This document shows positions 5,572 to 55,864 of a stretch of 56,016 bases of DNA, one piece after another; position 1 is the first letter of the stretch, and every line of letters begins with the position of its first letter. The stretch lies in contig JAAYKP010000145.1 in assembly GCA_012522335.1 (NCBI GenBank), positions 1-56,016 on the forward strand, given 5' to 3'. Source of the stretch: Bacillota bacterium (GTDB lineage Bacteria; Bacillota; Dethiobacteria; Dethiobacterales; Dethiobacteraceae). A program made the translations under genes and the position numbers. The notes below the pieces were generated by a model, which ran no database searches, was not told the origin of the DNA, and worked only from the letters and a program-made list of their open reading frames with translations.

Positions 5572-6408
5572 ATGCGAACTATTTGGAAAGGTGCTATCAG
5601 TTTTGGCCTGGTTAGCATTCCGGTTAAACTCTTTCCCGCCACTGAACAAAAAGATGTAAGATTCCGTAATCTGCACAAACAATGTCAGGCACCGCTTAAG
5701 TACCAAAAGATTTGTACAGTTTGTGGCCAGGAAGTAAAGCAGGAAGATGTTGTTCGCGGCTATGAATATGAAAAAGGAAGATTTGTGATTATTAGTGACG
5801 AGGATTTAGCCAGGATACCGGATGAGCGATCCCGCACCATTGACATTATTGATTTTGTTTCCCTGCAGGAAATTGATCCTGTTTATTTTGATAAAGCCTA
5901 TTATCTGGCGCCGGGCGAGGCCGGCGAAAAAGCTTATGCTCTGCTGCGTAAAGCCATGGAAGAGACAGGGAAAATAGCCATCGCTAAAGTAGTGATGCGC
6001 AGCAAGGAATCTCTGGTTGTCATTCGCAGCTATCAAGATTTGTTAGTAATGGAAACAATCTTTTATCCCGATGAAATACGCAATCCTGAACTGCTGCCCG
6101 GTTTCGAGCGGGAAATTAAGCTGCAGGATAAAGAAATGAAAATGGCATGTGAGTTAATAGAAAGCCTGGCAGCTGACTTTAAACCTGAAAAATATGAGGA
6201 TGAGTACCGAAAACAGCTCTTAGATATTATTTATGCTAAGATAGAGGGTGAGCAGATTGCCATTCCTGAGCAGCCTGCTGCGGGAAAAGTGGTAGATTTA
6301 ATGGAAGCATTAAAAGCTTCGGTTGAATTAGCAAAAAAAGCGGCCGGTAATGAGACAGAGGACGAGAGGCCTCGGAAAAGGAAAAAGAAAAAAGCTGCAG
6401 GTGAGTAG
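5572..6408 (+). CDS. ku: Ku protein, non-homologous end joining
   Basis: This is a 278-residue bacterial Ku homologue. It starts with the family signature MRTIWKGAISFGLVSIPVKL and carries the central beta-barrel features (VVRGYEYEKGRFVIISDED, SLQEIDPVYFDKAYYLAP). Ku forms a ring homodimer that threads onto broken DNA ends and recruits the LigD activities. The C-terminal tail is short and very rich in Lys and Arg (RKRKKKKAAGE), as often seen in bacterial Ku tails. It is followed after two bases by a ligase gene and then a polymerase gene, a complete two-step end-joining operon. In spore formers such systems typically repair breaks during germination or dormancy; that role is inferred. Confidence 0.95.
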   Translation: MRTIWKGAISFGLVSIPVKLFPATEQKDVRFRNLHKQCQAPLKYQKICTVCGQEVKQEDVVRGYEYEKGRFVIISDEDLARIPDERSRTIDIIDFVSLQEIDPVYFDKAYYLAPGEAGEKAYALLRKAMEETGKIAIAKVVMRSKESLVVIRSYQDLLVMETIFYPDEIRNPELLPGFEREIKLQDKEMKMACELIESLAADFKPEKYEDEYRKQLLDIIYAKIEGEQIAIPEQPAAGKVVDLMEALKASVELAKKAAGNETEDERPRKRKKKKAAGE

Positions 6409-6410
6409 TT

Positions 6411-7358
6411 TTGCTTTTTGAATATGTTAAGCCGATGGAGCCTGTTCCGGCCGCTGTTATTCCCCGAAGTCCCGATTATCTGTTTCAAGTCAAATGGGAC
6501 GGTGTGCGTCTGCTGGCCCATGTCCAGGGTCAGCGCGTGTGGCTGCATAACCGAAAATTACATAATCGCACTGCCCACTATCCCGAACTGACGGGATTAA
6601 ATCGGCTCATAGCCGGAGAGGCAGTTCTGGATGGGGAAATCGTGGCTATGCGCGATGGCAGGCCAAATTTTCCCTTGGTTCTGACCCGGGATTTAGTCAA
6701 CCCCCGGCAGACAGATTTTCCATATAAGATACGCCGGCTAATGACCGAAGCGCCGGTTTGCTATCTTGTTTTTGACCTGCTGTGGCATGCAGGGCAGGAT
6801 TTGCGCTCCCTGCCCTTATTAGACAGGCAAAATCGCCTGGCGGAAATTCTGCGCAATGATGATACTGTTTATCTGGTGGAAAACTTTGCGGACGGAGAAA
6901 AGCTTTTTACTGCCATCGCTGAGCAAAAGCTGGAAGGAATCGTGGCCAAGAAAACCGACAGCAGCTACATAGCGGGTAAGAAGCATACTGCCTGGCTAAA
7001 AATCAAGCATCGTCAGCAGCAGCTGGTTGTAATCGGCGGCTACACAATGAAAAATGGGCAGATCAATGCCTTGTTAGCCGGTGCATATTATCAGGAAAAG
7101 CTAATTTATGTGGGGAAAGTAGCTGCAGGTCTCAGTCTTCAGCAGTTGCGGGAGTTAACGCCATTTTTGCAGAAAAATACACTGGCGGCACCTCCATTTG
7201 CCAATCTCGAGCTGAAAAACCAGAGCAATATCTATTGGGTGAAACCGCTGCTGACAGCTGTGATTACCTTTCAGGAGTGGACTGATGATTTGCGTATGCG
7301 GCACCCGGTGCTCAGCGGGTTTACTAAAGAAGAGCCGGCAGCCTGCATTCTTACTTAG
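6411..7358 (+). CDS. ATP-dependent DNA ligase, LigD ligase-domain type
   Basis: This stand-alone ligase has 315 residues. The nucleotidyltransferase motif I KWDGVR places the AMP-accepting lysine at Lys28, and later motifs include VLDGEIVAM, VFDLLW, EGIVAKK and AWLKIK. An OB-fold domain follows (GGYTMKNGQINALLAG onward). It seals breaks held by Ku. Compared with the fused LigD of many bacteria, this chain has neither polymerase nor 3'-phosphoesterase domain; the polymerase is the next gene. The start is TTG 6411, two bases after the ku stop, with only a weak GGTGAG site, so translation is probably coupled to ku. Confidence 0.92.
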   Translation: MLFEYVKPMEPVPAAVIPRSPDYLFQVKWDGVRLLAHVQGQRVWLHNRKLHNRTAHYPELTGLNRLIAGEAVLDGEIVAMRDGRPNFPLVLTRDLVNPRQTDFPYKIRRLMTEAPVCYLVFDLLWHAGQDLRSLPLLDRQNRLAEILRNDDTVYLVENFADGEKLFTAIAEQKLEGIVAKKTDSSYIAGKKHTAWLKIKHRQQQLVVIGGYTMKNGQINALLAGAYYQEKLIYVGKVAAGLSLQQLRELTPFLQKNTLAAPPFANLELKNQSNIYWVKPLLTAVITFQEWTDDLRMRHPVLSGFTKEEPAACILT

Positions 7359-7368
7359 GAGGTAGCAG

Positions 7369-8262
7369 ATGCCCCAGCTGGTAATTAATGAACAAGCTAT
7401 ATCTTTAAGCAATTTGGAAAAAGTTTTCTGGCCTGAGGATGGTTATACTAAGCATGATCTGCTGACTTTTTATATTGAAATATCAGCATTTTTACTGCCA
7501 TATCTCAGGGATCGCCCCTGTAATTTCCAGCGTTTTCCTGACGGGATCCACGGCAAAAGTTTTTATCAAAAAAATCTGCCGGAATTTGCACCGGATTGGA
7601 TTCAAACCTTTCCTATCCCTGCCGCAGAACGGGTGATAGACTATGTTATTGTTAATAGTCTGGAGACATTAGTGTATGTCGTTAATTTAGCCTGTCTGGA
7701 AATTCATCCCTGGCATTCCTGCATACAAGCATTAAATTATCCAACCTGGGGTGTAGTTGATTTAGACCCACAGGCCGGGGTAGATTTTTGTACGGTACTG
7801 GATACTGCCTGTGTGGTCAAAGAGGTGCTTGATGAACTGCAGCTGGTCGGTTATCCAAAGACGTCCGGGGCAACGGGGCTGCAGATCTATCTGCCGCTGC
7901 AGCCCCGTTATAGCTATGAACAAGTACGGGATTTAATTAAATTTATATGTAATAAGGTGCATCAGCGTCTGCCCCAAACTACTACTATGGAACGACTGGT
8001 CCGGAAGCGTGCTGCCGCAGTTTATCTGGATTATCTGCAAAATTCATGGGGTAAAACCATTAATGCGCCCTATACGGTACGCCCTGTGGCGGGCGCCCAA
8101 GTTTCAGCGCCTTTGACCTGGGACGAGGTGTTTAGTGGTAAAGTGCACCCCAACCAGTTTACCATTAAAAATATGATGGCAAGAGTAAAAGAAAAAGGTG
8201 ATTTATTTGCGCCCGTGTTAGAGGAGAAGCAGGAGGTAAGCTCTGTTTTACGTCAGCTATAG
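7369..8262 (+). CDS. LigD-type polymerase (primase-like) for end joining
   Basis: This 297-residue protein matches the polymerase domain of LigD (archaeo-eukaryotic primase superfamily). Seen features are LSNLEKVFWPEDGYTK near the N terminus, RDRPCNFQRFPDGIHGKSFYQK, the HPWHS motif and the catalytic acidic pair in VVDLDPQ. The C-terminal APYTVRPVAGAQVSAPL is also typical. It fills or extends DNA ends with nucleotides, preferring ribonucleotides in studied relatives. It lies 10 bases after the ligase gene, so Ku, ligase and polymerase form one operon, with the domains of LigD encoded separately. Confidence 0.92.
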   Translation: MPQLVINEQAISLSNLEKVFWPEDGYTKHDLLTFYIEISAFLLPYLRDRPCNFQRFPDGIHGKSFYQKNLPEFAPDWIQTFPIPAAERVIDYVIVNSLETLVYVVNLACLEIHPWHSCIQALNYPTWGVVDLDPQAGVDFCTVLDTACVVKEVLDELQLVGYPKTSGATGLQIYLPLQPRYSYEQVRDLIKFICNKVHQRLPQTTTMERLVRKRAAAVYLDYLQNSWGKTINAPYTVRPVAGAQVSAPLTWDEVFSGKVHPNQFTIKNMMARVKEKGDLFAPVLEEKQEVSSVLRQL

Positions 8263-13804: not shown

Positions 13805-14575
13805 TTGAAAATAGCGATCTCTGGGAAAGGCGGCGTTGGCAAAAGTACTTTTGCCGCCAATCTGGTGCGGGAATTTGCTGAACGTGGTTTTAACGTGTAT
13901 GCCGTAGATGCTGATCCTGATGTTAGTCTAGGCGCGACATTAGGTTTGGATCCGGCTGATCTTGAGCGGCTGAAGCCGGTCATTGACATGAAAGCCGTTG
14001 TTGATGAACGTTCAGGTGGCGGTGGCGGTGCCCTGTACAACCTCAACCCGAAAGTTGATGATTTGATTGATGATTTTACTCTTCAGCAGGGCAATATCAA
14101 ATTTTTGCGTATGGGAGCCGTTAAGCAGGGAGGAACTGCCTGCTATTGCAAAGAGAATTCTTTTCTGTATGCTGTGCTCAGCAGCCTGCTGTTAGATAAA
14201 AATGATGTGGTTGTAATGGACATGAGCGCCGGGATTGAACATTTAACACGCGGTACTTCCCGTGGTGTAGATATGTTAATAATTGTTACCGAACCTACGC
14301 GTGTTTCTGTGCAGACAACCAGAGTGGTACAGCGGCTGGCTGCCGAATTAGGCATTAAGCAGGTTAAAGTTTTAGTCAACAAGGTGAGGACAGAGAAGGA
14401 AAGAGAATTTGTCAGCAGCCAGTTTACTGAGGCAGAATTGTTGGCGCTGCTACCCTTTGATGAAGGGGTGCTGGAAAATGCTTTGGCTGAGGCGAGTGGG
14501 CTGCTCTCAGGCACAGGAGTTATGCCTGGTGTAGATAAAATAGTCGATGAGATTTTACAGGAGGTGGAGCGATAA
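13805..14575 (+). CDS. cooC: CooC/AcsF-type nickel-insertion ATPase for CODH/ACS
   Basis: This 256-residue MinD/ParA-like ATPase starts with the deviant Walker A GKGGVGKS (residues 8-15). It has DADPD after strand 2 and the CYC pair (GTACYCKENSF) that binds metal at the dimer interface in CooC proteins. Family members load nickel into CODH or ACS. The start is TTG 13805 behind GGAGAGGAGGGG. It is the first gene of the acs cluster, 70 bases before acsA. Confidence 0.9.
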   Translation: MKIAISGKGGVGKSTFAANLVREFAERGFNVYAVDADPDVSLGATLGLDPADLERLKPVIDMKAVVDERSGGGGGALYNLNPKVDDLIDDFTLQQGNIKFLRMGAVKQGGTACYCKENSFLYAVLSSLLLDKNDVVVMDMSAGIEHLTRGTSRGVDMLIIVTEPTRVSVQTTRVVQRLAAELGIKQVKVLVNKVRTEKEREFVSSQFTEAELLALLPFDEGVLENALAEASGLLSGTGVMPGVDKIVDEILQEVER

Positions 14576-14589
14576 GGACTTTAGATTTT

Positions 14590-14605
14590 GTGCCGCAGGA
14601 GGCAC
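14590..14605 (+). promoter_or_regulatory. 16-nt hairpin motif, copy 2 (acsA leader)
   Basis: GTGCC and GGCAC pair around GCAGGA. The sequence differs from copy 1 (91-106) at three positions, two of which are a compensatory A-T to G-C exchange in the stem. It ends 40 nt before the acsA start, nearly the same distance as copy 1 from livK. Confidence 0.5.
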
Positions 14606-14645
14606 ACAGCTTTATGGAATTAAAAAAGGGAGGTATTAAAAACGC

Positions 14646-16613
14646 ATGACTGATGTTGCAAAGAAGAAAAAAGCCGATCGCAATCGGTCAATTGACCCTG
14701 CCGTTTTAGAGGTCCTTGCCCGGGAACTGCCAGTTGACACGGCGTATGATCGCTATTTGTCGCAGCAGCCACAGTGTAAATTTGGTGATACCGGAATTTG
14801 CTGCCGGATTTGTATCCAAGGTCCTTGCCGTATTACACCTAAAGCGCCTAAGGGTGTTTGTGGCGCGACGGCCTATACCATTGTTGCCAGGAATTTAGTT
14901 CGTACTGTAACAGGTGGCGCTTCTGCCCACTCCGACCATGCAAAACATATCTTACTCACACTTAAAGCATTGCTAAATGGTCATGCTCCTGACTACAGTA
15001 TTAAAAGTCCCGAAAAGCTGCGTGCTGTAGCTGAACGTTTCGATATTCCGACAGATGGCCGCACTGATCTGGAAGTTTTGGCCGACTTGGTACAGCTTGG
15101 TTTGGAGGACTTTACCCGGATGGGTGAAGGCAGTGTGAAGTGGGTTGAGAAAACCGTAACCCCAGGTCGTGTACAGAAGTTCCAGGAGTGCAACGTAATG
15201 CCAACCAGTGTTTTTGAAGCTATTGCCAGTGCAACCGCGCAAACACACGTTGGTATGGATGCCGACCCTGTCAACTTGATCTTTAAAGCATTAGAAACGT
15301 CTTTGGCCGACTACACCGGTATGCATATCGGCACAGATATGTCTGACGTCCTCTTCGGTGTCCCACAACCTGTATATACTGAGGCTAACATGGGTGTTAT
15401 CGACCCGGCAAAAGTTAATATTGCCGTACACGGACACAATCCCCTGCTGTCTGAAATGATTGTCTTGGCTGCACGTGAACTGGAAGAAGAAGCGAAAGCA
15501 GCCGGCGCCGCAGGGATTCAGTTAATGGGTATTTGTTGTACCGGTAACGAAGTATTGATGCGTCAGGGTGTTCCCCCGGTGACAAACTTTATGTCGCAGG
15601 AGCTGCCTATCATGACCGGCGCCATTGATGCCATGGTCGTTGACCTGCAGTGTATTATGCCGGGAATCCAAACAGCAGCCGAGTGTTTCCATACAAAAAT
15701 CGTAACTACTTGTGAGAACGTAAAAATCCCCGGAGCCCATCATATTGATTTTAAAGAAGAAAAAGCGCTGGAGGATGCCAAAACCGTTATCCGCATTGCT
15801 ATTGACAGCTATAAGGAACGGATTGGCCAAGAGTGCATTATTCCGGAAATCAAGAATAAAGTTGTGGCCGGTTTCAGTATGGAAGCGCTATACGATTTGT
15901 TCAGTGCCATCAATCCTGATGCCCCAATTAAAGTGCTTACAGACGCCCTGAAATCCGGCGAACTGCGCGGCGTTGTCCTGCTTTGCGGCTGCAATAACTT
16001 AAAAGCAATGCACGATGAAAGCCACACTGTAATTGCGCAGGAGCTGGCGAAAAATGATGTCTTTATGGTGTCTACCGGATGCGCGGCCGGAGCTTACGCT
16101 AAGCTGGGCCTGTTATCTCCGGAAGCTGTTGATAAGTATGCCGGTGAGGGGCTCAAACGCTTTATTAACCGCCTCAATGAAGCTAATGCCGATAAGCTGG
16201 AGGGTAAACTGCCGCTGATCTTCCATATGGGATCCTGTGTTGACAACTCACGTTCAATGAATCTTGCTACAGCCATTGCTAATGACTTTGGTGTAGATAT
16301 TCCCAAGATTCCATATGCGGCCAGTGCTCCCGAAGCTATGAGTGAAAAGGCTGTTGCCATTGGTTCTTGGAATGTTACCATGGGTCTTCCGGTCCATGTT
16401 GGAGTCGTACCTCCTGTTACAGGTAGTGAGTTGGTAAACGGTGTTGCTACGCAAATCGCCCATGATGTTTATGGCGGTTACTTTATCTGGGAAACAGATC
16501 CGCATGCAGCTGCACAGAAGCTTTTAGAGGCACTTGATTATCGCAGCTGGAAGCTCAGAGTGCATAACCAGACTGCTGAAAGATATAGCGCAGCAGCTTC
16601 CACTACCTGGTAA
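14646..16613 (+). CDS. acsA: Carbon monoxide dehydrogenase catalytic subunit
   Basis: This 655-residue Ni-Fe CODH of the CooS/AcsA family reduces CO2 to CO, which is channelled to acetyl-CoA synthase. The N-terminal cysteine group (CKFGDTGICCRICIQGPC, about residues 45-65) supplies the B and D iron-sulfur clusters. Later cysteine and histidine motifs (ICCTGNEVL, LLCGCNNLKA, STGCAAGAYAKLG, HMGSCVDNSR) are those that hold the C-cluster. The product is soluble and forms the beta subunit of the CODH/ACS complex. Adjacent acsB and cooC make assignment to the ACS-associated type secure. Confidence 0.97.
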   Translation: MTDVAKKKKADRNRSIDPAVLEVLARELPVDTAYDRYLSQQPQCKFGDTGICCRICIQGPCRITPKAPKGVCGATAYTIVARNLVRTVTGGASAHSDHAKHILLTLKALLNGHAPDYSIKSPEKLRAVAERFDIPTDGRTDLEVLADLVQLGLEDFTRMGEGSVKWVEKTVTPGRVQKFQECNVMPTSVFEAIASATAQTHVGMDADPVNLIFKALETSLADYTGMHIGTDMSDVLFGVPQPVYTEANMGVIDPAKVNIAVHGHNPLLSEMIVLAARELEEEAKAAGAAGIQLMGICCTGNEVLMRQGVPPVTNFMSQELPIMTGAIDAMVVDLQCIMPGIQTAAECFHTKIVTTCENVKIPGAHHIDFKEEKALEDAKTVIRIAIDSYKERIGQECIIPEIKNKVVAGFSMEALYDLFSAINPDAPIKVLTDALKSGELRGVVLLCGCNNLKAMHDESHTVIAQELAKNDVFMVSTGCAAGAYAKLGLLSPEAVDKYAGEGLKRFINRLNEANADKLEGKLPLIFHMGSCVDNSRSMNLATAIANDFGVDIPKIPYAASAPEAMSEKAVAIGSWNVTMGLPVHVGVVPPVTGSELVNGVATQIAHDVYGGYFIWETDPHAAAQKLLEALDYRSWKLRVHNQTAERYSAAASTTW

Positions 16614-16645
16614 GATTAAAATATACTTGAAAGGGAGGAAAGAGC

Positions 16646-18829
16646 ATGTCTACAATAGACTTTGATCAAATTTATGCCGATGCAATTCCTGCAGGGGCGA
16701 AGGAACCAACCAAACTGTTTCAGCGTGCCTATAACGGTGCCATCATTGCTACCAGCTATGCTGAAATTTTGTTAAATCAGGCAATTCGTAAATATGGTCC
16801 TAATCATCCTGTAGGTTATCCGGATACAGCATATTATTTGCCTGTGATCAGCAGTCTTTCCGGTGAAAAAGTTGAAACACTAGGTGAGCTTGTACCAATT
16901 CTGAACCGGATGAGAAATCAAATCAATTCTAAACTAAATTTCGCCAATGCTCGTTTATGCGGTGAATCTACAGCTTATGCTGCTGAAATAATTGAAGCAC
17001 TCCGCTATCTAAACGGTGCTCAGCCTCACGTGGAACCGTGGACAGGATATTTGACAGACCCGATTCTGCGTAAATTCGGTATTCAGTTAGTTGACTGGAC
17101 TATCCCCGGTCAAGCGGTAATCGTTGGTAAAGCCCGCACCAGCCCTGATGCCGTAAAAATTGTCCAGGAGCTTCAGTCCAAAGGTATGATGATTTTCCTG
17201 GTCAATGAAGTGATTGAGCAGCTGCTGGAAGAAAATATGAAGCTGGGTGTAGATTATATTGCTTTCCCGCTTGGTAATTTCACCCAGGTTATCCACGCTG
17301 TGAACTTTGCTTTACGCGCCGGTATGGCTTTTGGCGGTATCGCCCCTGGGCTGCGCGCAGAACATCGCGATTACCAACGCCGCCGGATCCGTGCCTTTGT
17401 AATGCATTTAGGGGAAATTGATGATGTGCAGGTGGCTGCACACTTTGCCGCCATTTTCCTTGGTTTCCCGGTAATTTGCGATACCGAGCTGGAAGAGGAA
17501 ATTCCTGACTGGTATGTTTCCCATACAGATTATGATACACTAGTAAAGTACTGTATGGAATTACGCGGCATCAAGCTGAAAATTGTTGATATCCCCGTTC
17601 CCATTACCATTGGTCCCGCTTTCGAAGGTGAAACAATCCGCAAAGGTGATATGTATGTGGAAATGGGCGGCGGCCGTACCACAGCCTTTGAGCTGGTACA
17701 AATGGTAGGAGAGAACGAAATCGAGGACGGTAAAGTCACAGTAATTGGTCCGGAAATCGATCAATTTAAAGAAGGCGACCGACTGCCCTTTGGCATCATC
17801 GTAAAAATCTTTGGTCGTAAAATGCAGCAGGACTTCGAAAGTGTGTTAGAGCGTCGAATTCACTATTTCATTAACTATGGTGAAGGGCTCTGGCACGTAG
17901 CTCAGCGTGACCACTGCTGGCTGCGGATCTCTAAAGAAGCTGTCGCTAAAGGATTCCAGTTTAAGCATTATGGGGAACTGCTGATTGCCAAGTTCAAAGA
18001 TGAGTTCCCTGCTATTGTGGACCGTGTGGAAGTTGTTATTCTAACCGAGCAGTCAGAAGTTGACAATGCCATCAAGGTGGCACGGGCAGCATACGCTGAG
18101 CGGGACGCCCGCCTGCAGGGATTAACGGATGAGTCTGTTGATGAATTCTATTCCTGCATCCTCTGTCAATCTTTTGCTCCGAACCACGTGTGCATTGTTT
18201 CACCGGAACGTGTGGGACTGTGTGGTGCTGTTAGCTGGTTGGATGCCAAGGCTTCCTATGAAATTGATCCTAATGGTCCCAACAGACCGATTAAAAAAGA
18301 GGGCGTTATTGACGAAGAAAAAGGGATGTGGCAGTCTGTTAACGAATATATATATGCGGCATCAAACAATAGCGTCGATGAAGTTAACCTCTATACGTTA
18401 ATGGATCGTCCCATGACCTCTTGCGGCTGTTTTGAAGCTATTTTAGCTCTGGTGCCTGAAGCTAACGGGCTGATGATAACCACCCGTGAACACGGTGGGG
18501 AAACTCCCTGCGGTATGACTTTCTCCACTTTAGCCGGTTCTGTCGGCGGTGGCGTGCAGGCTCCCGGTTTCATGGGTATTGGACGCAGCTATCTGCTGTC
18601 GCGCAAATTTATTCAGGCTGATGGCGGTCTGGCCCGCATTGTCTGGATGCCCAAAGAACTAAAAGATTACCTCGGCGACGATTTGCGCAAACGGGCAGAA
18701 GAAGCCGGATTGGGAGCTGACTTTGTTGATAAAATAGCTGATGAATCGGTAGGGACAACAGCAGATGAAATTCTCCCCTTCTTGGAAGAGAAGAATCATC
18801 CGGCCTTAACGATGGATCCGCTTATCTAA
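16646..18829 (+). CDS. acsB: Acetyl-CoA synthase, CODH/ACS alpha subunit
   Basis: This 727-residue protein joins CO, a corrinoid-bound methyl group and CoA to make acetyl-CoA. The A-cluster ligands are visible as SCILCQSFAPNHVCIVSPER with a further cysteine in GLCGAVSW (about residues 502-530), and as SCGCF near 592. The length matches bacterial AcsB with its N-terminal CODH-binding domain, unlike the shorter archaeal form. It lies 32 bases after acsA behind a strong GGGAGGAAAG site. A hairpin separates it from acsC. Confidence 0.97.
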   Translation: MSTIDFDQIYADAIPAGAKEPTKLFQRAYNGAIIATSYAEILLNQAIRKYGPNHPVGYPDTAYYLPVISSLSGEKVETLGELVPILNRMRNQINSKLNFANARLCGESTAYAAEIIEALRYLNGAQPHVEPWTGYLTDPILRKFGIQLVDWTIPGQAVIVGKARTSPDAVKIVQELQSKGMMIFLVNEVIEQLLEENMKLGVDYIAFPLGNFTQVIHAVNFALRAGMAFGGIAPGLRAEHRDYQRRRIRAFVMHLGEIDDVQVAAHFAAIFLGFPVICDTELEEEIPDWYVSHTDYDTLVKYCMELRGIKLKIVDIPVPITIGPAFEGETIRKGDMYVEMGGGRTTAFELVQMVGENEIEDGKVTVIGPEIDQFKEGDRLPFGIIVKIFGRKMQQDFESVLERRIHYFINYGEGLWHVAQRDHCWLRISKEAVAKGFQFKHYGELLIAKFKDEFPAIVDRVEVVILTEQSEVDNAIKVARAAYAERDARLQGLTDESVDEFYSCILCQSFAPNHVCIVSPERVGLCGAVSWLDAKASYEIDPNGPNRPIKKEGVIDEEKGMWQSVNEYIYAASNNSVDEVNLYTLMDRPMTSCGCFEAILALVPEANGLMITTREHGGETPCGMTFSTLAGSVGGGVQAPGFMGIGRSYLLSRKFIQADGGLARIVWMPKELKDYLGDDLRKRAEEAGLGADFVDKIADESVGTTADEILPFLEEKNHPALTMDPLI

Positions 18830-18836
18830 AGTTGGT

Positions 18837-18865
18837 AGGCAGGCTGATGCTTTACCAGCCTGCCT
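18837..18865 (+). promoter_or_regulatory. Intercistronic hairpin between acsB and acsC
   Basis: A perfect 10-bp stem pairs AGGCAGGCTG with CAGCCTGCCT around a 9-nt loop. It is followed only by CCCTTCTTG, a poor U-tract. It is more likely an mRNA-stabilising or partial attenuating element than a full terminator, because acsC has no clear promoter of its own. Confidence 0.5.
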
Positions 18866-18920
18866 CCCTTCTTGTATATCTTGTGACATTTTTTTAAGGA
18901 AAGGAAGGAATCAATCAATT

Positions 18921-20252
18921 ATGGCTTTAACAGGTCTGCAGATTTTCAAACAACTCCCCAAGACCAACTGCAAGGATTGTGGTCATCCCACTTGCTTGGC
19001 ATTTGCCATGGCCTTGGCTGCTGGAAAAACATCATTAGATAAGTGCCCACATGTTTCTGAAGAAGCCAAAGAAGCGCTTGGTGCTGCCTCTGCACCCCCT
19101 ATTAAGTTGGTCAAAATCGGTGTCGATCAAACAGTAGTTGAATTAGGTGATGAAACAGAATTATTCCGTCATGATAAGCGCTTTTATCATCCAACGGCTG
19201 TTGCCATTTTGGTTGAAGATACGGAAGACATTGCCGCCCGTTTGGCAGACTTCAATGATTTAGAATTTGACCGTGTAGGGCTGCACTATGTTACAGATAT
19301 GGTTGCGCTGCAGTGCACTTCCGGCGATGCTGCCACCTTTAAGGCGGCTGCTGAACAGGTTGCCGCCAATACGGATAAATCCTTCATGCTCATCTGTGAA
19401 GATGCGGCAGTGATGGAGGCTGCCGCTGAGGCCGTAGCTGCGCGTAAGCCTTTACTGTATGCTGCTACCAATGATAACTATGAAGCAATGACTGCTCTGG
19501 CGCAAAAGGTTGAGTGCCCCCTTGCTGTGAAGGGCAATGGTTTGGCTGATCTGGCGGAGCTGGTTGACAAAATTACCAAACTCGGATATAAAGAATTAGT
19601 ACTTGACAGCGGTAATCGTGAGACTTCGCAAGTATTGGCGGATCTGACACAGATGCGCCGTTTAGCCGTGAAAAAACGTTTCCGTTCCTTTGGCTATCCC
19701 ACCATGGCTTTTACCAGTAAAGAAGATGCACACGAAGAAATCGTTCAGGCCAGTGTTTATGTGGCAAAATATGCAGGCTTGGTTGTGCTTAAAGCACATA
19801 AAAAAGAAGAGATTCTACCGCTCTTAACCTGGCGGCAAAACCTCTATACTGATCCGCAAAAACCAATTCAGGTGGAAGCTAAAGTTAACGCTATCGGTGA
19901 TGTCACACCCGATTCCCCGGTTTATATTACTACCAACTTCTCCCTGACCTACTACATTGTCGAAGGTGAAGTGGAAAACAGTAAGATTCCCGCCTATATT
20001 TTACCAATTAATACCGATGGCATCTCTGTCTTAACTTCTTGGGCTGCCGGCAAGCTGACTGGTGAAGCCATTGCCAAGGCGCTTGAGGAAAATGAGATGG
20101 AAGCAAAGGTTAATCATAAAACATTAGTACTGCCTGGCTACGTTGCAGTGCTGTCCGGAAGCACCGAAGAGGCATCCGGCTGGAAAGTACTTGTCGGCCC
20201 GCGCGAAGCCGCCGGTATTCCGAGCTTTGCCAGAGAGCACTTTGCTAAGTAA
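18921..20252 (+). CDS. acsC: Corrinoid iron-sulfur protein large subunit
   Basis: This is a 443-residue CoFeSP gamma subunit. The N-terminal [4Fe-4S] domain has cysteines at 17, 20, 25 and 42 (TNCKDCGHPTC...DKCP). A TIM-barrel and a C-terminal cobamide-binding domain follow. With AcsD it carries the methyl group from methyl-THF to acetyl-CoA synthase. Reductive repair of its cobalt is done by the AcsV-type protein encoded next. Confidence 0.95.
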   Translation: MALTGLQIFKQLPKTNCKDCGHPTCLAFAMALAAGKTSLDKCPHVSEEAKEALGAASAPPIKLVKIGVDQTVVELGDETELFRHDKRFYHPTAVAILVEDTEDIAARLADFNDLEFDRVGLHYVTDMVALQCTSGDAATFKAAAEQVAANTDKSFMLICEDAAVMEAAAEAVAARKPLLYAATNDNYEAMTALAQKVECPLAVKGNGLADLAELVDKITKLGYKELVLDSGNRETSQVLADLTQMRRLAVKKRFRSFGYPTMAFTSKEDAHEEIVQASVYVAKYAGLVVLKAHKKEEILPLLTWRQNLYTDPQKPIQVEAKVNAIGDVTPDSPVYITTNFSLTYYIVEGEVENSKIPAYILPINTDGISVLTSWAAGKLTGEAIAKALEENEMEAKVNHKTLVLPGYVAVLSGSTEEASGWKVLVGPREAAGIPSFAREHFAK

Positions 20253-20288
20253 AATAACCTAAGCCGGCAGAGGAAGAGGTGACACCAC

Positions 20289-22193
20289 GTGGAAAAGGCA
20301 ACCGTTTTGTTTACTCCTGACAATCTGGCAGTCGATGTAGAACCCGGCACTTCTTTGCTGCAGGCAGCTAATTTGGCAGGTATAGAACTGGTAAGCAGTT
20401 GCGGCGGCGATGGTACGTGCGGACGCTGCCTGGTAAAAGTACAAGATGGTTATGTTAAAGTTAAAGATGGCGGCAATATTTCTCCCCGTGCGAAAAAGGC
20501 CGGTCTGGTTTTAGCCTGTAAAACTTTCGCTGAGGGCAATGTGGTGGTTGATATTCCCAGCAGGTCTCGCCTGGAAGAGCATCAGGTGCTTTTAGATGAG
20601 CAGCTGCTGTTGGAAAAGGATATTGACGGGGCAGAAGGTTTTAGTCTGCAGCCTCTCTGTCAAAAGCTGGCTGTTACCCTCACACCACCGACGCTTGAGG
20701 AGAATATTGCTGACTGGGAGCGTTTACAGACAGCGATTCGCAGCGCATTATCATGTTCAGATGTTCGCATCAGCATGTCGGTGCTCAGACAGCTGCCGGA
20801 GGCGCTGCGGGCAGGTGACTGGCAGGTTACAGTTGGTGTCACGCAAATAAATGGCTGCGCTGAGGTTATTACCATAGAGCCGGGTCACACTACCTCTCGG
20901 GAAGTATATGGTGTGGCCATTGATATTGGCACGACTACAGTTGCTGCACAGCTGATTGATTTGGTTAATGGCTTTACTGTCAGTAAAAAAGGCAGCTACA
21001 ACAAGCAAGCTCGCTTTGGTGACGACGTCATTTCCCGCATTATACATGCCAGTGAGCGCCCTGAGGGATTGGCAGAGCTGCATCAGACAATTATCAGTAC
21101 GATCAATGACTTATTGGCCGAACTGCTGCAGCCCGGTAATTTGGCAGCAAAAGATGTATTAATGGTGACGGTAGCCGCTAATACCACCATGACACATTTG
21201 TTTTTAGGACTACCGCCCAAATATATCCGCCTGGAACCATATATTCCGCTGGCAGCTGCCACCCCGCCGGTTAAGGCGCAGGAACTGGGGATTAATGTTA
21301 ATCCGGAGGCTTACGTCGTTTGTTTCCCCTCGGTAGCCTCCTATGTTGGTGGTGATATTGTTTCCGGGACACTGGTGACTAATGTTGCTAAAGATGAGCG
21401 GGTAACGCTGTTCATTGATATTGGTACTAACGGCGAAATGGTGCTGGGCAATCAGGACTGGTTAGTTTCAGCTGCTTGTTCCGCCGGTCCTGCCTTTGAA
21501 GGAGGCGGCATTACTTATGGGATGCGCGCCATGAAGGGGGCCATTGACAGCGTAGACATTGATCCTGAAACTTTTGAGGTAAAAGTGTCTACCATTGGCC
21601 GCTGTAAAGCCAGGGGCATTTGCGGCTCCGGCTTAATCGATTGTCTGGCTACTTTTCGCAATGTAGGTATCATTGATCGTGCCGGGAAAATGCAGACAGA
21701 TATCCAAACGCCGCGGCTGCGTCAAAGCGACGAAGGCTGGGAGTTTATTCTGGTCTATGGAGCAGAGTCGGAGAGCGGTCGGGATATTGTAATTACGGAA
21801 AATGATATAAAAAACCTGCTGCGGGCTAAAGCAGCAGTATACGCCGGTATTCGCAGTATGCTCAATGCAGTCCAGCTTGAGATGGAGATGATTGAACGGG
21901 TACTGATTGCGGGTGGTTTCGGCAATTACCTTAACATTGGCGATGCCATTACAATTGGCCTGCTGCCTGATTTGCCGGCAGAAAAGTATACCTTTATCGG
22001 TAACTCCTCGTTAAAAGGAGCGCGTTTAGCTTTAATTTCCAAGGAGGCCTGGCAGGAAGCGCAGGAGTTAGGGGAGAAGATTACTTACCTGGAACTATCT
22101 GCGGGCAATGATTTTATGGAAGAATTTATGTCAGCCCTCTTTTTACCCCATACAGATATGTCTTTGTTCCCATCGATAACAAATGTAAAATAG
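20289..22193 (+). CDS. acsV: RACo/AcsV: ATP-dependent reductive activator of the corrinoid iron-sulfur protein
   Basis: This 634-residue protein has an N-terminal plant-type [2Fe-2S] domain with Cys38, Cys44, Cys47 and Cys77. A linker and a C-terminal ASKHA-type ATPase region follow, with the phosphate motif AIDIGTTTVAAQL near residue 210 and IDIGTNGEM near 380. Known relatives use ATP hydrolysis to return inactive Co(II) CoFeSP to Co(I). The start is GTG 20289. Its place between acsC and acsD supports this role over the related O-demethylase activators. Confidence 0.93.
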   Translation: MEKATVLFTPDNLAVDVEPGTSLLQAANLAGIELVSSCGGDGTCGRCLVKVQDGYVKVKDGGNISPRAKKAGLVLACKTFAEGNVVVDIPSRSRLEEHQVLLDEQLLLEKDIDGAEGFSLQPLCQKLAVTLTPPTLEENIADWERLQTAIRSALSCSDVRISMSVLRQLPEALRAGDWQVTVGVTQINGCAEVITIEPGHTTSREVYGVAIDIGTTTVAAQLIDLVNGFTVSKKGSYNKQARFGDDVISRIIHASERPEGLAELHQTIISTINDLLAELLQPGNLAAKDVLMVTVAANTTMTHLFLGLPPKYIRLEPYIPLAAATPPVKAQELGINVNPEAYVVCFPSVASYVGGDIVSGTLVTNVAKDERVTLFIDIGTNGEMVLGNQDWLVSAACSAGPAFEGGGITYGMRAMKGAIDSVDIDPETFEVKVSTIGRCKARGICGSGLIDCLATFRNVGIIDRAGKMQTDIQTPRLRQSDEGWEFILVYGAESESGRDIVITENDIKNLLRAKAAVYAGIRSMLNAVQLEMEMIERVLIAGGFGNYLNIGDAITIGLLPDLPAEKYTFIGNSSLKGARLALISKEAWQEAQELGEKITYLELSAGNDFMEEFMSALFLPHTDMSLFPSITNVK

Positions 22194-22217
22194 CTGGAAA
22201 GAAAGGAGCGCAACCAT

Positions 22218-23198
22218 ATGGCTTTCAGTGCAATGAAAGAAAGGTATAGAAATAAGATTAATGAAGTAGTATTAGGCGCCACCAAAGAAGAAGGCGGTAC
22301 CCGTGGTTACACCGTTACTGTCGGCGGTGAAAGTGCGCTGCCCTTTTTACATTTTGAAGGTGAAATCCCCAACCGTCCCATCGTAGCTTTAGAGGTGTGG
22401 GATGTTGCACCAACCGACTGGCATGAATCGTTCACGACGTATTTTGGTGATGTTTTTGACAATCCTGCCCAGTGGGCAAAAAAATGTGTTGAGGAATATG
22501 GTGCAGATGTGATTGCTGTCCGGCTCAAGGGTGCAGATCCTGATGTAGCCGATGCTTCTCCCGAAGACTGTGTCAAGGTTGTCAAGGATATTTTAGCTGC
22601 CGTTTCCTGTCCGCTGATTGTCCTGGGCTGCGGCAAGGCAGAAAAAGATAATCAGGTGCTGCCTGCGGTGGCAGAAGCAGCAGCCGGCGAAAACCTCCTT
22701 ATTGGTTCTGCAGAGCAGGAGAATTATAAATCACTTGCTGCCGCCTGCATGGTGCATAAGCACAGCTTAATTGCCAGCTCCCCCATTGACATTAATATCT
22801 GTAAGCAGCTTAATATTTTAATTACAGAAATGAATTTGCCGGCCGAACGCATTGTCATTGATCCCACAACTGCTGCCTTAGGTTATGGCCTGGAATATGG
22901 TTACTCCATTATGGAGCGTGCCCGCATTGGCGCGCTGCAGGGTGATAAAATGCTGGCCATGCCTATTCTTGGCAACGTAGGTCACGAAGTGTGGCGGGCC
23001 AAAGAAGCAAATATCTCTGCGGAAGATATGCCCGGATGGGGTGAACAACCGAGCCGTGGCTTTTTATGGGAAGCTACTACAGCAACCGCCCTGCTGCAGG
23101 CCGGTATGAACATTGTCGTCATGCGTCATCCCGCAGCTGTAGCTTTAGTCAAGCAAAATATTACTGAACTAATGAAACCGACCAGCTTTGAAGAATAA
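22218..23198 (+). CDS. acsD: Corrinoid iron-sulfur protein small subunit
   Basis: This 326-residue TIM-barrel delta subunit of CoFeSP pairs with AcsC. Recognisable features are the start [20 protein letters not shown] and the region [17 protein letters not shown]. The heterodimer presents cobalamin alternately to AcsE and AcsB. It follows acsV by 24 bases with an AAAGGAG site. Confidence 0.95.
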
Positions 23199-23247
23199 GT
23201 AGTACACAGCTTGCTGCAAACGGTTGTTAACTACCGACTATTACTAA

Positions 23248-24057
<810 letters not shown>

Positions 24058-24083: not shown

Positions 24084-26177
24084 GTGAGCAATATCAAGTA
24101 TGATTTGTCTTCTCCTGCTCCCGAGTACCCCCCCTGTCAAGCAGGCTGCCCTGTTCATACCGATGTACAGGAGTATGTACGGCAGATCTCCCTGGGTAAT
24201 TACGACAAAGCAGTAGAAGCAATCATTGCTCCGAATCCCATGGCTTCAGTGTGCGGTATTATCTGTGCACACCCTTGCGAGACGCAATGCCGGCGCAAGG
24301 ATGTGGATGAGCCCGTCGCAATTCGCGCCCTGAAGCGCTTTGCTCTGGAGAATGGCGCTTGGCCGGAAGTTAAAAAAGCGGAAGTAACACGTAGTGAAAA
24401 AGTGGCGGTGGTTGGTGGCGGGCCAGCCGGTTTAGCTGCTGCCAAAGAGCTGGCAGAAATGGGCTTTGCGGTAACAGTTTTTGAACGCAGTGCCGAGGCC
24501 GGCGGTGCAATTACTAACTACATTCCCACTTATCGTTTACCAATGGAGGCTGTGCGGAAGGATGTTGACCGTATAGCCGCTCTTGGTGTGGAAATTAAAA
24601 CCGGTGTGGAGTTAGGTAAAGATTTTTCCCTTGATGATTTAGCTAAAGACTACCAAGCAATTGTTCTCGCTTTGGGGCTGCCGACAAGCCGTTCCATTAA
24701 TATCCCCGGCAGTGATGCTAAGGATGTAATGTTGGCTCTGCCCTTCCTGAGCAGTGTTAAATTTGAAGGTTTCAAGTTTGAGCCCGGCCGCAATGTTTTA
24801 GTTATTGGCGGCGGTAACGTGGCCATGGACGTGGCGCGCTCTGCAGTACGCTGCGGTGCTGAAAGCGTCCAGTTGATGTGCCTGGAGTGCCGTGCCGATA
24901 TGCCGGCTAACCCCTGGGAAATTGAAGAAGCATTAGAAGAAGGCGTTGTTATGCATCCCGCTTGGGGACAGCAGCGAATTCTTGTTGATGACCAGGGTAA
25001 CATTACCGGGGTAGAAGTGAAAGAAGTACTGTCAGTTCTGGACGAGCAAAAGCGTTTTAACCCCCAATTCGGCACAGCAGAAAAAGTTATCCCTTGTAAT
25101 GTAGTTGTTTTGGCCATTGGTCAAACCAATGATGATCTTTCTTATTTAACTGCTGCCGGTGTGGAGCTGACAGAACGCGGCACCTTAAAATTCAACAGAC
25201 ATACTTTGCAGACAACTCGTCCTGACGTTTTTGTGGCCGGTGAAGTTGCCTTTGGTCCTGGTTTAGCTGTGGAAGCTTTAGCATCCGGCCAAAAAGTGGC
25301 ACAGGCTGTTAAACAATATCTGGATGGTGTACCTTTTGACGCCGATTATGTGGATCGCTTTATCACTTTGGATCCGCTGGCTTCCGCCACCGTGGAAAAA
25401 GTGAAGCCTCTGCCCCGTCTGGAAGTACCAAACCTGGATCCGGAAACACGGACGCAGCATTTTGACGTGGTTGAAATCGGTTATGATGAGCGTGCTGCGC
25501 TCTGCGAAAGCCGCCGCTGCCTGGACTGCGCCGCCGGTGCTGAATGTATCGATGAGCTTTGTGCGGTCTGTCTCACCTGCCTGCGTACCTGTCCGTACGG
25601 TGTGCCGGTTGTTGATGAAAACGGTATCTTCACCATCCGTAATGAAGAGTGTCAGGCCTGCGGTCTTTGTGTCGGAATCTGCCCGGCATCTGCCATTCGT
25701 TTCCGTAACTATTATGCCCAACATGCTCTGGATCAATTAGCAGATGCTGTGAAGCTGGCACAAGGAAACGGCGGACCGACAACGGTAGTTTTCTGCTGCA
25801 GCTATGGCGCTTTTGCTGAACGTTCCTTCCTCGATTATGTTAACAACGGTAAGCCGCAAAACCTGGCTGTTGTACGTGTACCCTGCGTAGCCAAAGTTGA
25901 AGTGGAAAACATTCTGGAGGCCTTCAACCTTGGTGCCGAAGCCGTCTTTGTGGCCGGCTGCCAGGAGGAAGGGGAATGCACCTACTATGATGTAGAAAAG
26001 TGGGCTGCCAAACGTGTTGGTCGTGCCCAGGAGATTTTGGGTGAATTAGGTCTGGAAAAAGAGCGTGTAGAGTACGGCACCTTAGCAGTAGATGAAGTTA
26101 GAAACTTTAAGGCTGTTGCGGAACAGTACCTGGCAAAGGTCGATGCTGTGCTGAACGGTGAGGGAGGTGAAGAGTAA
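24084..26177 (+). CDS. Fusion: GltD-like FAD/NAD(P) oxidoreductase, two [4Fe-4S] clusters and an MvhD-like domain
   Basis: The 697-residue chain has four parts. Residues 13-85 form a cysteine-rich helical domain as in glutamate synthase small subunit (C18, C22, C57, C61, C65, C69). Residues 105-415 form a two-dinucleotide-binding flavoprotein (VVGGGPAG 109-116, IGGGNVAMDVA 241-251). Residues 479-533 hold ferredoxin-type clusters (eleven cysteines, CAVCLTCLRTCP and CQACGLCVGICP). Residues 565-690 resemble MvhD, the delta subunit linking hydrogenase to heterodisulfide reductase (VRVPC, ILEAFNLGAEAVFVAGC). The usual MvhD CNWCSY motif is shortened to FCCSY. The gene directly abuts metV, so it probably feeds electrons between NAD(P)H, ferredoxin and MetVF. 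It replaces the separate hdrA-mvhD genes of other acetogens; substrate and direction are inferred. Confidence 0.85.
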   Translation: MSNIKYDLSSPAPEYPPCQAGCPVHTDVQEYVRQISLGNYDKAVEAIIAPNPMASVCGIICAHPCETQCRRKDVDEPVAIRALKRFALENGAWPEVKKAEVTRSEKVAVVGGGPAGLAAAKELAEMGFAVTVFERSAEAGGAITNYIPTYRLPMEAVRKDVDRIAALGVEIKTGVELGKDFSLDDLAKDYQAIVLALGLPTSRSINIPGSDAKDVMLALPFLSSVKFEGFKFEPGRNVLVIGGGNVAMDVARSAVRCGAESVQLMCLECRADMPANPWEIEEALEEGVVMHPAWGQQRILVDDQGNITGVEVKEVLSVLDEQKRFNPQFGTAEKVIPCNVVVLAIGQTNDDLSYLTAAGVELTERGTLKFNRHTLQTTRPDVFVAGEVAFGPGLAVEALASGQKVAQAVKQYLDGVPFDADYVDRFITLDPLASATVEKVKPLPRLEVPNLDPETRTQHFDVVEIGYDERAALCESRRCLDCAAGAECIDELCAVCLTCLRTCPYGVPVVDENGIFTIRNEECQACGLCVGICPASAIRFRNYYAQHALDQLADAVKLAQGNGGPTTVVFCCSYGAFAERSFLDYVNNGKPQNLAVVRVPCVAKVEVENILEAFNLGAEAVFVAGCQEEGECTYYDVEKWAAKRVGRAQEILGELGLEKERVEYGTLAVDEVRNFKAVAEQYLAKVDAVLNGEGGEE

Positions 26178-26846
26178 ATGATTGTCGCTGAACGTAAACC
26201 GCTAGGGGAAATTTTAAAAAATCTTGAGCCTCACAAGAAGGTACTGATTCTTGGCTGCGGTGAATGTGTAACTGTTTGTATGACAGGTGGGGATAAAGAA
26301 GCGCGCGAAACAGCCCTGGCTCTTTCCATTGCCCGCAAAAAAGCAGGCAGCCCCATTGAAGTTAAAAGCCATACAGTAGAACGGCAGTGTGAACCGGAAT
26401 ATCTGGAATCTGCGCGCCACTTGGTGGAGGAAGCTGATGTTGTTGTTTCCTTGGCTTGCGGCGTAGGTATTCAGAATATGAATGAATATTACGCGGACAA
26501 ACGGACTCTTCCCGGTGTAAATACGACCTTTATGGGTATGCCCACTGAGCAGGGTGTGTGGACGGAAAACTGCCTGGGCTGTGGTAATTGTGTCTTAGAT
26601 GAAACTATGGGTATCTGTCCCATTGCCCGCTGCTCTAAGAGTATGCTGAACGGCCCATGTGGGGGCTCCCAAAACGGTAAATGCGAAGTAAGTAAAGATA
26701 TAGATTGTGCCTGGCATTTAATTGTGGAGCGGTTGATGAAGTTTAATAAACTGGGGGCTTTGCAGGAAGTGAAGGAACCGAAAGACTGGTCAACATCCCA
26801 CCACGGCGGGCCGCGTAAAATGATCAGGGAGGATGTGAGACTGTAA
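26178..26846 (+). CDS. metV: MetV, iron-sulfur partner of methylenetetrahydrofolate reductase
   Basis: This 222-residue protein of the MetV family has an N-terminal LGCGECVTVCMTGG motif. A C-terminal cysteine-rich part (CLGCGNCVLDETMGICPIARC, GPCGG, CEVSKDIDC) binds iron-sulfur and possibly zinc. MetV binds MetF and passes electrons to its flavin in acetogens such as Moorella. The ATG follows the stop of the fusion gene without any gap, and its stop shares a base with the metF start. Confidence 0.9.
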   Translation: MIVAERKPLGEILKNLEPHKKVLILGCGECVTVCMTGGDKEARETALALSIARKKAGSPIEVKSHTVERQCEPEYLESARHLVEEADVVVSLACGVGIQNMNEYYADKRTLPGVNTTFMGMPTEQGVWTENCLGCGNCVLDETMGICPIARCSKSMLNGPCGGSQNGKCEVSKDIDCAWHLIVERLMKFNKLGALQEVKEPKDWSTSHHGGPRKMIREDVRL

Positions 26847-27763
26847 TGACTAAAAGCAATCTGCAAAAAGTTTTGGAAAGCGGAGCGTTTGCGGTTACAG
26901 GTGAACTTGGTCCTCCAAAGAGCGGGCAGCGGGATGTTATTGAGCATCATGCAAGCCATCTGAAGGGCGTTGTAGACTCAGTTAACATTACTGACAACCA
27001 AACCGCAATTGTACGTACTTCCAGCATTGCTACCGGCAGAATTCTCCTGGATATGGGGATTGAACCTAATGTGCAGATGACAGTACGTGACCGCAACCGG
27101 ATTGCTATCCAGGCTGACGTCCTGGGCGCAGTTGCGTTGGGAATGAAGAATATCCTTTGTATCCAGGGTGACCATGCTACATTAGGTAACGAGCCCAAGG
27201 CCAAAAACGTTAATGACCTTGACTCCATGAACCTTATCAGCGCACTGAAAAAAATGCGCGATGAGCAGGAGTTCATCGGCGGCGATAAGTTGGATGCGCC
27301 CATCGATCTTTATATCGGTGCGGTAGCTAACCCCTTTGCCGATCCCTTTGAATATCGTCCTTATCGTTTGGCTAAGAAAATTGAAGCCGGAGCTCAGTTT
27401 ATTCAAACACAGGTTATTTTTGACATGGAACGCTTTGAGCGTTATATGAAAATAGTAGTCGATATGGGCTTACATGAAAAAGCGCATATTATTGCCGGTA
27501 TCACTCCCCTTAAATCCCTTGGTGCGGCACGTTATATGAAAAATAATGTGGCCGGGATGATTGTGCCGGATCATATTATTGACCGCCTCAAAGGCGCCAA
27601 GGATAAAAAAGCTGAGGGTGTAAATATCGCCGTCGAAATGATTGAGCATCTGAAGACCATCGAAGGTGTTGCCGGTGTTCATATCATGGCGGTTGCCTGG
27701 GAGGAAATTGTTCCGGAAATCGCCGAGCGTGCAGGGTTACTGCCGCGTCCCACTTTCGACTAA
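26846..27763 (+). CDS. metF: Methylenetetrahydrofolate reductase, MetF type
   Basis: This 305-residue flavin TIM-barrel enzyme interconverts methylene-THF and methyl-THF, the last step of the methyl branch before AcsE. Seen features are the N-terminal FAVTGELGPPKSG, SVNITDNQ, NILCIQGDHATLGN and FIQTQVIFDMERF. It overlaps metV by one base (TAATG), so the two are co-translated. A strong terminator follows, ending the 14 kb cluster. Other Wood-Ljungdahl genes (fhs, folD, formate dehydrogenase) are not in this window. Confidence 0.93.
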   Translation: MTKSNLQKVLESGAFAVTGELGPPKSGQRDVIEHHASHLKGVVDSVNITDNQTAIVRTSSIATGRILLDMGIEPNVQMTVRDRNRIAIQADVLGAVALGMKNILCIQGDHATLGNEPKAKNVNDLDSMNLISALKKMRDEQEFIGGDKLDAPIDLYIGAVANPFADPFEYRPYRLAKKIEAGAQFIQTQVIFDMERFERYMKIVVDMGLHEKAHIIAGITPLKSLGAARYMKNNVAGMIVPDHIIDRLKGAKDKKAEGVNIAVEMIEHLKTIEGVAGVHIMAVAWEEIVPEIAERAGLLPRPTFD

Positions 27764-54529: not shown

Positions 54530-55864
54530 ATGAGCGTAAAAACTTTTAAGGGAGGCGTTCATCCCGGAGATTTTAAAAGTCTCACGGAAAAGAAGGCTGT
54601 TGTTCCGGCCAAGCCCCCTGCAGTAGCGGTAATCCCGCTGTCACAGCATATCGGTGCTCCCTGTGAACCACTGGTGGCTGTCGGTGACGAAGTGAAGATG
54701 GGGCAAAAAATCGGTGACAGTGACGGTTTTATTTCGGCTCCTGTACACGCCAGTGTTTCCGGGAAAGTAGTAAAAATAGCTCCTTGTAATACTGCTTTGG
54801 GGCGAACTGTCGATGCTGTATATATTGAAAATGATTTTCAGGATACCTGGCATGAAAATGTTAAGCCTAATGAAAACTGGGAGCAGCTGACAGCCGACGA
54901 AATAAAAAAGATTGTGCGTGAGGCCGGAATCGTAGGGATGGGCGGCGCGACCTTCCCTACGCATGTCAAGTTATCGCCGCCTGCCGAGCAAAAGATTGAA
55001 TATGTGCTGGTTAACGCGGCAGAATGTGAACCGTATTTAACGGCAGATCATCGGGCCATGCTGGAGCGGGCAGAAGATATCATCGTGGGTCTTAAATTGA
55101 TTATGAAGGCTGTAGATGCTGCCAAAGGTTATATCGGTATTGAAGACAATAAGCCCGATGCCATTGCCGTCATGCAGGAGGCTGCTGCCGGTGAACCTGG
55201 GATTGAAGTTTTTGCCCTGCATACTAAATATCCACAAGGGGCAGAGAAACAATTAATTACGGTTTTAACCGGGCGCGAGGTGCCCTCCGGCGGTTTGCCT
55301 GCTGCCGTTGGCTGCATAGTACAAAATGTTGGCACCTGTATCGCCATTGCTGAGGCAGTACGTTTTGGCAGACCCTCCATTGAGCGCATTGTCACAATCA
55401 CCGGCGCCGGCGTAAAAGAGCCCAAGAATATGTTGGTGCGTGTAGGCACACCGGTGACACAGGTAGTTGAGGAATGCGGTGGGTTTGCCGCTGATCTGCG
55501 GAAGCTGATTATGGGTGGACCGATGATGGGTCTGGCCCAGGAAAGCCCGGAAAACTTACCCGTTACCAAAGGAACCTCCGGCATTCTGTGCCTGACAGAA
55601 AAAGAAGTTGAACTGGATGAAATTCATCCCTGTATAAAATGTGCCAAATGTGTCGAGGTTTGTCCTGTAAGCATTATGCCGATCTTTATTGGCTCCAGTG
55701 TAGAGCAGGGCATGTATGAACTGGCAGAAACTTATCGTGCTCTGGACTGCATTGAGTGTGGCTGTTGTTCCTACATCTGTCCGGCGAAAAGGCCCCTTAC
55801 TCAGTGGATCCGGATAGGCAAAGCTGAGATTGCGGCCAAAAGACGGGCTGCCGCAGCTAAGTAA
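54530..55864 (+). CDS. rnfC: Rnf complex subunit C (ferredoxin:NAD+ oxidoreductase)
   Basis: This is a 444-residue RnfC, the NADH- and FMN-binding peripheral subunit of the Rnf complex. It has a lipoyl-like N-terminal domain (HIGAPCEPLVAVGDEVKMGQKIG), the nucleotide-binding GMGGATFPTHVKLSPP region near residue 140, and two [4Fe-4S] motifs (CIKCAKCVEVCP near 366 and CIECGCCSYICP near 406). Rnf couples electron flow from ferredoxin to NAD+ with ion export in acetogens. It is the first gene of the rnf operon and is followed by rnfD. Confidence 0.96.
   Translation: MSVKTFKGGVHPGDFKSLTEKKAVVPAKPPAVAVIPLSQHIGAPCEPLVAVGDEVKMGQKIGDSDGFISAPVHASVSGKVVKIAPCNTALGRTVDAVYIENDFQDTWHENVKPNENWEQLTADEIKKIVREAGIVGMGGATFPTHVKLSPPAEQKIEYVLVNAAECEPYLTADHRAMLERAEDIIVGLKLIMKAVDAAKGYIGIEDNKPDAIAVMQEAAAGEPGIEVFALHTKYPQGAEKQLITVLTGREVPSGGLPAAVGCIVQNVGTCIAIAEAVRFGRPSIERIVTITGAGVKEPKNMLVRVGTPVTQVVEECGGFAADLRKLIMGGPMMGLAQESPENLPVTKGTSGILCLTEKEVELDEIHPCIKCAKCVEVCPVSIMPIFIGSSVEQGMYELAETYRALDCIECGCCSYICPAKRPLTQWIRIGKAEIAAKRRAAAAK

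Follow-up and report, generated by a model that had tools for sequence, protein, structure and literature searches.

Which protein hands electrons to the methylene-THF reductase MetVF at the end of the CODH/ACS operon in a member of the Dethiobacteraceae (Bacillota)? The ATP balance of the Wood–Ljungdahl pathway depends on the electron donor of MetVF, whose identity is unsettled for several acetogens (PMC8760232). We analyzed a window, that is, the whole stretch of 56,016 nt on contig JAAYKP010000145.1 (assembly GCA_012522335.1), in which the gene directly in front of metV encodes a flavoprotein module, a ferredoxin region and an MvhD domain in one chain.

A fused flavoprotein gene in front of metVF

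The fusion gene has a GTG start with an aggagg-type ribosome site on its 5' side, and begins 26 bases behind the end of acsE. Its TAA stop abuts the ATG of metV at position 26178 with a gap of 0, in agreement with the initial annotation, whereas metV and metF overlap by one base (26846). The three genes form the end of the CODH/ACS operon in the window (Table 1), of which AcsC, AcsV, AcsD and AcsE were assigned by Pfam/NCBIfam, and CooC, AcsA and AcsB by sequence reading. The adjacent metV and metF, each with its family domain, identify a MetVF-type methylene-THF reductase. Elsewhere in the window, an RnfC-like ORF (54530-55864; Complex1_51K, 2.4e-58) is located near the contig end, which cuts off the remaining cluster. 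In addition, three successive ORFs (5572-8262) resemble, by eye, Ku and split ligase/polymerase parts of LigD, proteins of non-homologous end joining.

Table 1 Features of the fusion-metVF locus within the window.
Feature	Positions	Strand	Assignment or evidence
Upstream operon: CooC-like, CODH (AcsA), ACS (AcsB), AcsC, AcsV, AcsD, AcsE	13805..24057	+	
Fused flavoprotein-ferredoxin-MvhD gene, 697 aa	24084..26177	+	Putative NADH-oxidising electron donor of MetVF
GltD-like module, residues 1-416	24084..25331	+	Fer4_20 and FAD/NAD(P) Rossmann domains
Ferredoxin region, residues ~473-552	25500..25739	+	Pfam and invariant Cys
MvhD/FlpD domain, residues 561-697	25764..26174	+	Pfam, PDB sequence match, fold
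metV, 222 aa, iron-sulfur subunit of methylene-THF reductase	26178..26846	+	DUF5981, 9e-36 (Pfam)
metF, 305 aa, flavin-binding catalytic subunit	26846..27763	+	MTHFR, 2.5e-41 (Pfam)

The Pfam order along the fusion (Fer4_20 at residues 16-89, Pyr_redox_2 at 106-402, Fer4/dicluster at ~490-540, and FlpD, i.e., MvhD, at 568-687 with E=7e-24) confirms the predicted arrangement, in which a GltD-like FAD/NAD(P) module is followed by ferredoxin clusters and MvhD within 697 residues. The expectation that the C-terminus folds like MvhD is also borne out. In a PDB sequence search it matches MvhD chains (5odc_D, 4.8e-16), the AlphaFold2 model of the last 137 residues reaches pLDDT 85 and pTM 0.83, and MvhD or delta subunits take the first four places among the Foldseek matches of this model (TM 0.70-0.71). 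The full-chain AlphaFold model built with 16 homologues is poor (pLDDT 58, pTM 0.38), and its Foldseek matches, which repeat the GltD similarity, were set aside. Matches to HdrA models are confined to residues 471-689, in the C-terminal part of the fusion.

Ten cysteines of the ferredoxin region (479, 482, 493, 496, 499, 503, 523, 526, 529 and 533) are invariant. The fusion carries at least two ferredoxin-type [4Fe–4S] clusters, and additional invariant cysteines point to more. The MvhD domain lacks the NWC cysteine of canonical MvhD. It keeps four invariant cysteines (572, 601, 626 and 632), the number looked for in a [2Fe–2S] site, and these would suffice for one such cluster.

The solved structures closest to residues 1-416 are the large subunits of NfnABC, Stn and Nfn, and two positions of the module are informative. 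Lys84, invariant in 26 sequences, occupies the position of StnC Lys170, whereas NfnL has a Glu there that belongs to its proximal cluster (PMC9503767); when this Glu is mutated in Nfn, the two branches become uncoupled. StnC, with its Lys170 at this site, is reported to have lost bifurcation, and its FAD is described as non-bifurcating (PMC10482914). Moreover, the fusion carries C266-L267-E268 (CLE), likewise invariant in 26 sequences, at the place of the YRR-type motif that follows the second Rossmann fold. The YRR motif, which marks NADPH use, is present in NfnL-like, Stn-type and NuoF-GltD rows and absent from the fusion, which shares CLE, and likewise the Lys at residue 84, with three of the four sampled GltD domains of Moorella-type HdrA.

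The GltD tree agrees with this kinship. The modules of the host family are monophyletic (support 100/99), with the lone homologues of the class as their sister group, followed outward by the f115 rows and three of the four GltD domains of Moorella-type HdrA. The join to the latter is supported by 93/69, or by 100/99 with one long-branch row included.

Conservation of the fusion and gene content of the host

Full-length fusions with 66-100% identity are found in 18 of the 20 host-family genomes, the host included, and metV directly follows in all 18, with zero or overlapping gaps. In the other two, a short contig carries a fragment of the fusion gene in one case, and both genes are lacking in the other. 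Since the full-length fusion and its metV neighbor recur in 18/18 genomes, a chance fusion or an assembly artefact is ruled out.

Among 399 genomes drawn evenly across the phylum, the ~700-residue fusion is confined to the host class and three genomes from two other families. Three related families of the class (f3, f5 and f6) hold a homologue, 44-50% identical, as a lone gene, which in several f3/f6 genomes lies between genes read as ppdK and dnaG/sigA. In the five f3/f5/f6 genomes examined, acsE is directly followed by metV and metF (L076-L080), and a genome of another family (G148) likewise combines a bare acsE-metV-metF with a lone fusion. Direct coupling to metVF is therefore a feature of the host family, not of the fusion as such. 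Among class genomes outside families f1 and f4, 30 have both fusion and MetV, three have the fusion only, none has MetV only and two have neither (Fisher p=0.017, uncorrected for kinship). Two f115 genomes (G304 and G327) deviate from this pattern: an HdrA-MvhD donor is encoded next to metVF, and a lone fusion is present too; because metVF already has a donor in f115, some members of the fusion family may serve another acceptor.

The host MAG (2.0 Mb, 169 contigs) is 99% complete, and its gene content was probed family by family. The only MvhD in the genome is that of the fusion, and no HdrB CCG domain was found by a search whose control was positive in 12 of 14 genomes. These MvhD and HdrB results speak against a separate hdrABC-mvhD set elsewhere in the host, which would have counted against the initial annotation. 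The host operon itself contains neither hdrB nor hdrC, no HdrA core or further HdrA-like gene, and no NuoF/HydB-type FMN module. Given the order kept in 18/18 genomes and the lack of another MvhD and of HdrB in the host, the sequence data indicate that the fusion is a real, fixed candidate partner of MetVF.

No FeFe or NiFe hydrogenase was found in the host genome. RnfC-like genes lie on two of its contigs, and it also encodes formate dehydrogenases, one of which has NuoE/NuoF-type partners. On one host contig (L081:2407-8543, G000:C55), genes read from sequence as RnfC-like and RnfD-like lie beside a TAT-signal formate dehydrogenase, whose frame reads as split by a stop, possibly a selenocysteine. 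Formyl-THF synthetase was not found in the host genome and is present in 18 of the 19 family members; its absence from the host may reflect a gap in the assembly or a real loss.

The slot upstream of metV

The position held by the fusion is functionally equivalent to that of the Moorella hdr/mvhD genes, as had been proposed, both lying in the slot between acsE and metV. Several arrangements are found just upstream of metV in the genomes compared: the Moorella set hdrC-hdrB-hdrA-mvhD (L117, L121) with an HdrA of 1486-1491 aa, HdrA-MvhD (L120, L124), single-chain HdrA-like-Fd-MvhD proteins of 659-675 aa (L119, L123) or 931-980 aa (L118, L122), and a 431-aa flavoprotein with separate MvhD in f4 (L061, L063, L064). 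In two genomes of different families, an FMN-binding Old-Yellow-Enzyme-like barrel is fused to Fd-MvhD and followed by metVF (L071:5933-10401 and L116:6599-11114). The gene on the 5' side of this fusion encodes a methylaspartate ammonia-lyase in L071 (Pfam) and a similar-looking 416-aa protein in L116.

The element common to the slot proteins is the ferredoxin-MvhD end, and by sequence the slot is a site of interchangeable flavoproteins sharing this putative output. The MvhD domain tree is too weak to show a single origin of all slot proteins, and the Met-linked MvhD rows do not all group together in it. We tentatively propose, at somewhat less than even odds, that a ferredoxin-MvhD end serves as a common plug for feeding MetVF and has been joined in evolution to varied flavoproteins (GltD, HdrA-like, Old Yellow Enzyme), in some cases at loci distant from metVF. 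On this view, the lone fusion would be the physiological reductant of the seemingly bare MetVF in these lineages.

Other metVF neighborhoods were also observed. A second metVF set stands behind a ~1030-aa NuoF-GltD fusion in L065, L066, L067 and L070 (f3/f5/f6 genomes and G003 of f1); upstream of this fusion, L065 has genes for a NuoE-like protein and for a molybdopterin oxidoreductase whose N-terminus is of NuoG type. With its YRR motif, the NuoF-GltD fusion looks like a different MetVF donor. Furthermore, metVF adjoins a NiFe hydrogenase large subunit, as read from sequence, in G022 (L062:6513-9669) and G012 (L072:5004-8146), a neighborhood already noted for Contubernalis (PMC10608574).

Proposed electron path and alternative readings

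We propose, with a probability of about 0.68, that the fusion passes electrons from NADH to the methylene-THF reductase MetVF as a single-chain, linear, non-bifurcating donor. It would be a reduced relative of the HdrA-MvhD donor of Moorella. NADH would most likely reduce the FAD of the GltD module, from which electrons would pass one at a time to the Lys-ligated proximal [4Fe–4S] cluster and the ferredoxin clusters, then to the [2Fe–2S] cluster of the MvhD domain, the MetV clusters and finally the MetF flavin. There, methylene-THF would be reduced to methyl-THF; in acetate oxidation the reaction would run the other way. The linear path is favored because of the kinship of the GltD module, the CLE motif, Lys84, the StnC precedent and the NADH oxidation reported for Moorella HdrA (PMC8760232, PMC9430772). 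We infer the physical fusion-MetVF complex, the NADH specificity, the electron path and the lack of bifurcation alike: gene order and residue patterns support the putative donor role, and one motif together with the kinship to HdrA suggests the preference for NADH.

Among known systems, Moorella thermoacetica HdrABC-MvhD-MetVF (type IV) shares the slot, the MvhD output and an MvhD-like protein whose gene accompanies metVF; the GltD domain of the 1485-1491-aa Moorella-type HdrA is 36-50% identical to that of the fusion, and the respective MetVF subunits are 50-61% identical. The Moorella donor, however, consists of several chains with a separate MvhD, whereas here MvhD is part of one chain, which would have kept the NADH-input and MvhD output domains. 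The HdrA core flavin domain, HdrB and HdrC of the Moorella complex are missing from the fusion and its operon, and for this reason the fusion does not hold the full Moorella module set, contrary to the initial view that one chain combines all the electron-transfer modules. In the f4 split system, which occupies the same slot and fits Candidatus Contubernalis alkaliaceticus, a flavoprotein with ferredoxin clusters and MvhD likewise precede metVF, but the flavoprotein is TrxR/HdrA-like and the genes are separate. Such a pair has been interpreted as belonging to an HdrABC whose HdrBC genes lie at another locus (PMC10608574). StnC of the Sporomusa Stn transhydrogenase has a GltD-like module with the proximal-cluster Lys as in the fusion (PMC10482914), although it carries YRR/NADPH and a NuoG-like part instead of CLE and MvhD. 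In function, the fusion is best read as similar to Acetobacterium woodii RnfC2-MetVF, built from Moorella-type parts. The A. woodii donor is an RnfC-type subunit, with a fold different from the GltD-ferredoxin-MvhD chain. In this type III system one NADH-input subunit likewise feeds MetVF, and bifurcation is not reported (PMC8760232).

A minimal bifurcating complex, in which the fusion and MetVF split NADH electrons between methylene-THF and ferredoxin, had been suggested for this locus. The GltD fold includes the bifurcating NfnB, and in methanogens MvhD works with an HdrA that bifurcates. Bifurcation has also been proposed for the Moorella complex (PMC8760232), and the RnfC-type subunits of the host could use reduced ferredoxin. 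Nevertheless, the Glu ligand at the proximal [4Fe–4S] cluster of NfnB/NfnL is replaced by the invariant Lys84, and the GltD module is of the StnC/Moorella-HdrA type, with StnC having lost bifurcation (PMC10482914). In addition, the operon has no HdrA core and no NuoF/HydB-type FMN module, HdrB is absent, and the drop from NADH (-320 mV) to methylene-THF (-200 mV) is small. Lys84 and the case of StnC led us to set aside a bifurcating GltD flavin as the main reading, and we consider the bifurcating complex very improbable. This argument from homology may fail if the second branch is provided by MetVF itself.

It is only slightly less improbable that the fusion serves another acceptor, as an oxidoreductase of NAD(P)H or ferredoxin, and is just co-transcribed with metVF. 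The solitary homologues of related families, near ppdK/dnaG-type genes in f3/f6, and the f115 genomes with their separate donor fit such a role. It is at odds with the strict fusion-metV adjacency in the host family, with an MvhD output end common to several different proteins upstream of metV, and with the association of lone fusions with MetV in the class (p value uncorrected for kinship). A reading compatible with the linear donor, which we regard as possible though rather unlikely, is that the fusion runs mainly backwards, oxidizing methyl-THF and reducing NAD+ in syntrophic acetate oxidation. The host combines formate dehydrogenases and RnfC with a lack of FeFe/NiFe hydrogenase, and the f4 genome G022 fits Contubernalis, a syntrophic acetate oxidiser described with an HdrA-MvhD pair beside metVF (PMC10608574). 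Gene content, however, does not set direction, and the reduction of NAD+ by methyl-THF is uphill by ~120 mV.

A search of the openly accessible literature, with subscription papers outside its scope, found no description of the fusion beside metVF. As a donor encoded by one gene in one chain, it makes the choice between NADH, NADPH and ferredoxin directly testable, and the comparison separates the NADH-input part of the Moorella complex from its HdrA part. In this little-known anaerobic family, the multi-subunit electron feeder of MetVF would be replaced by one fused protein; if the path is linear, the family forgoes the energy saving of a bifurcating complex.
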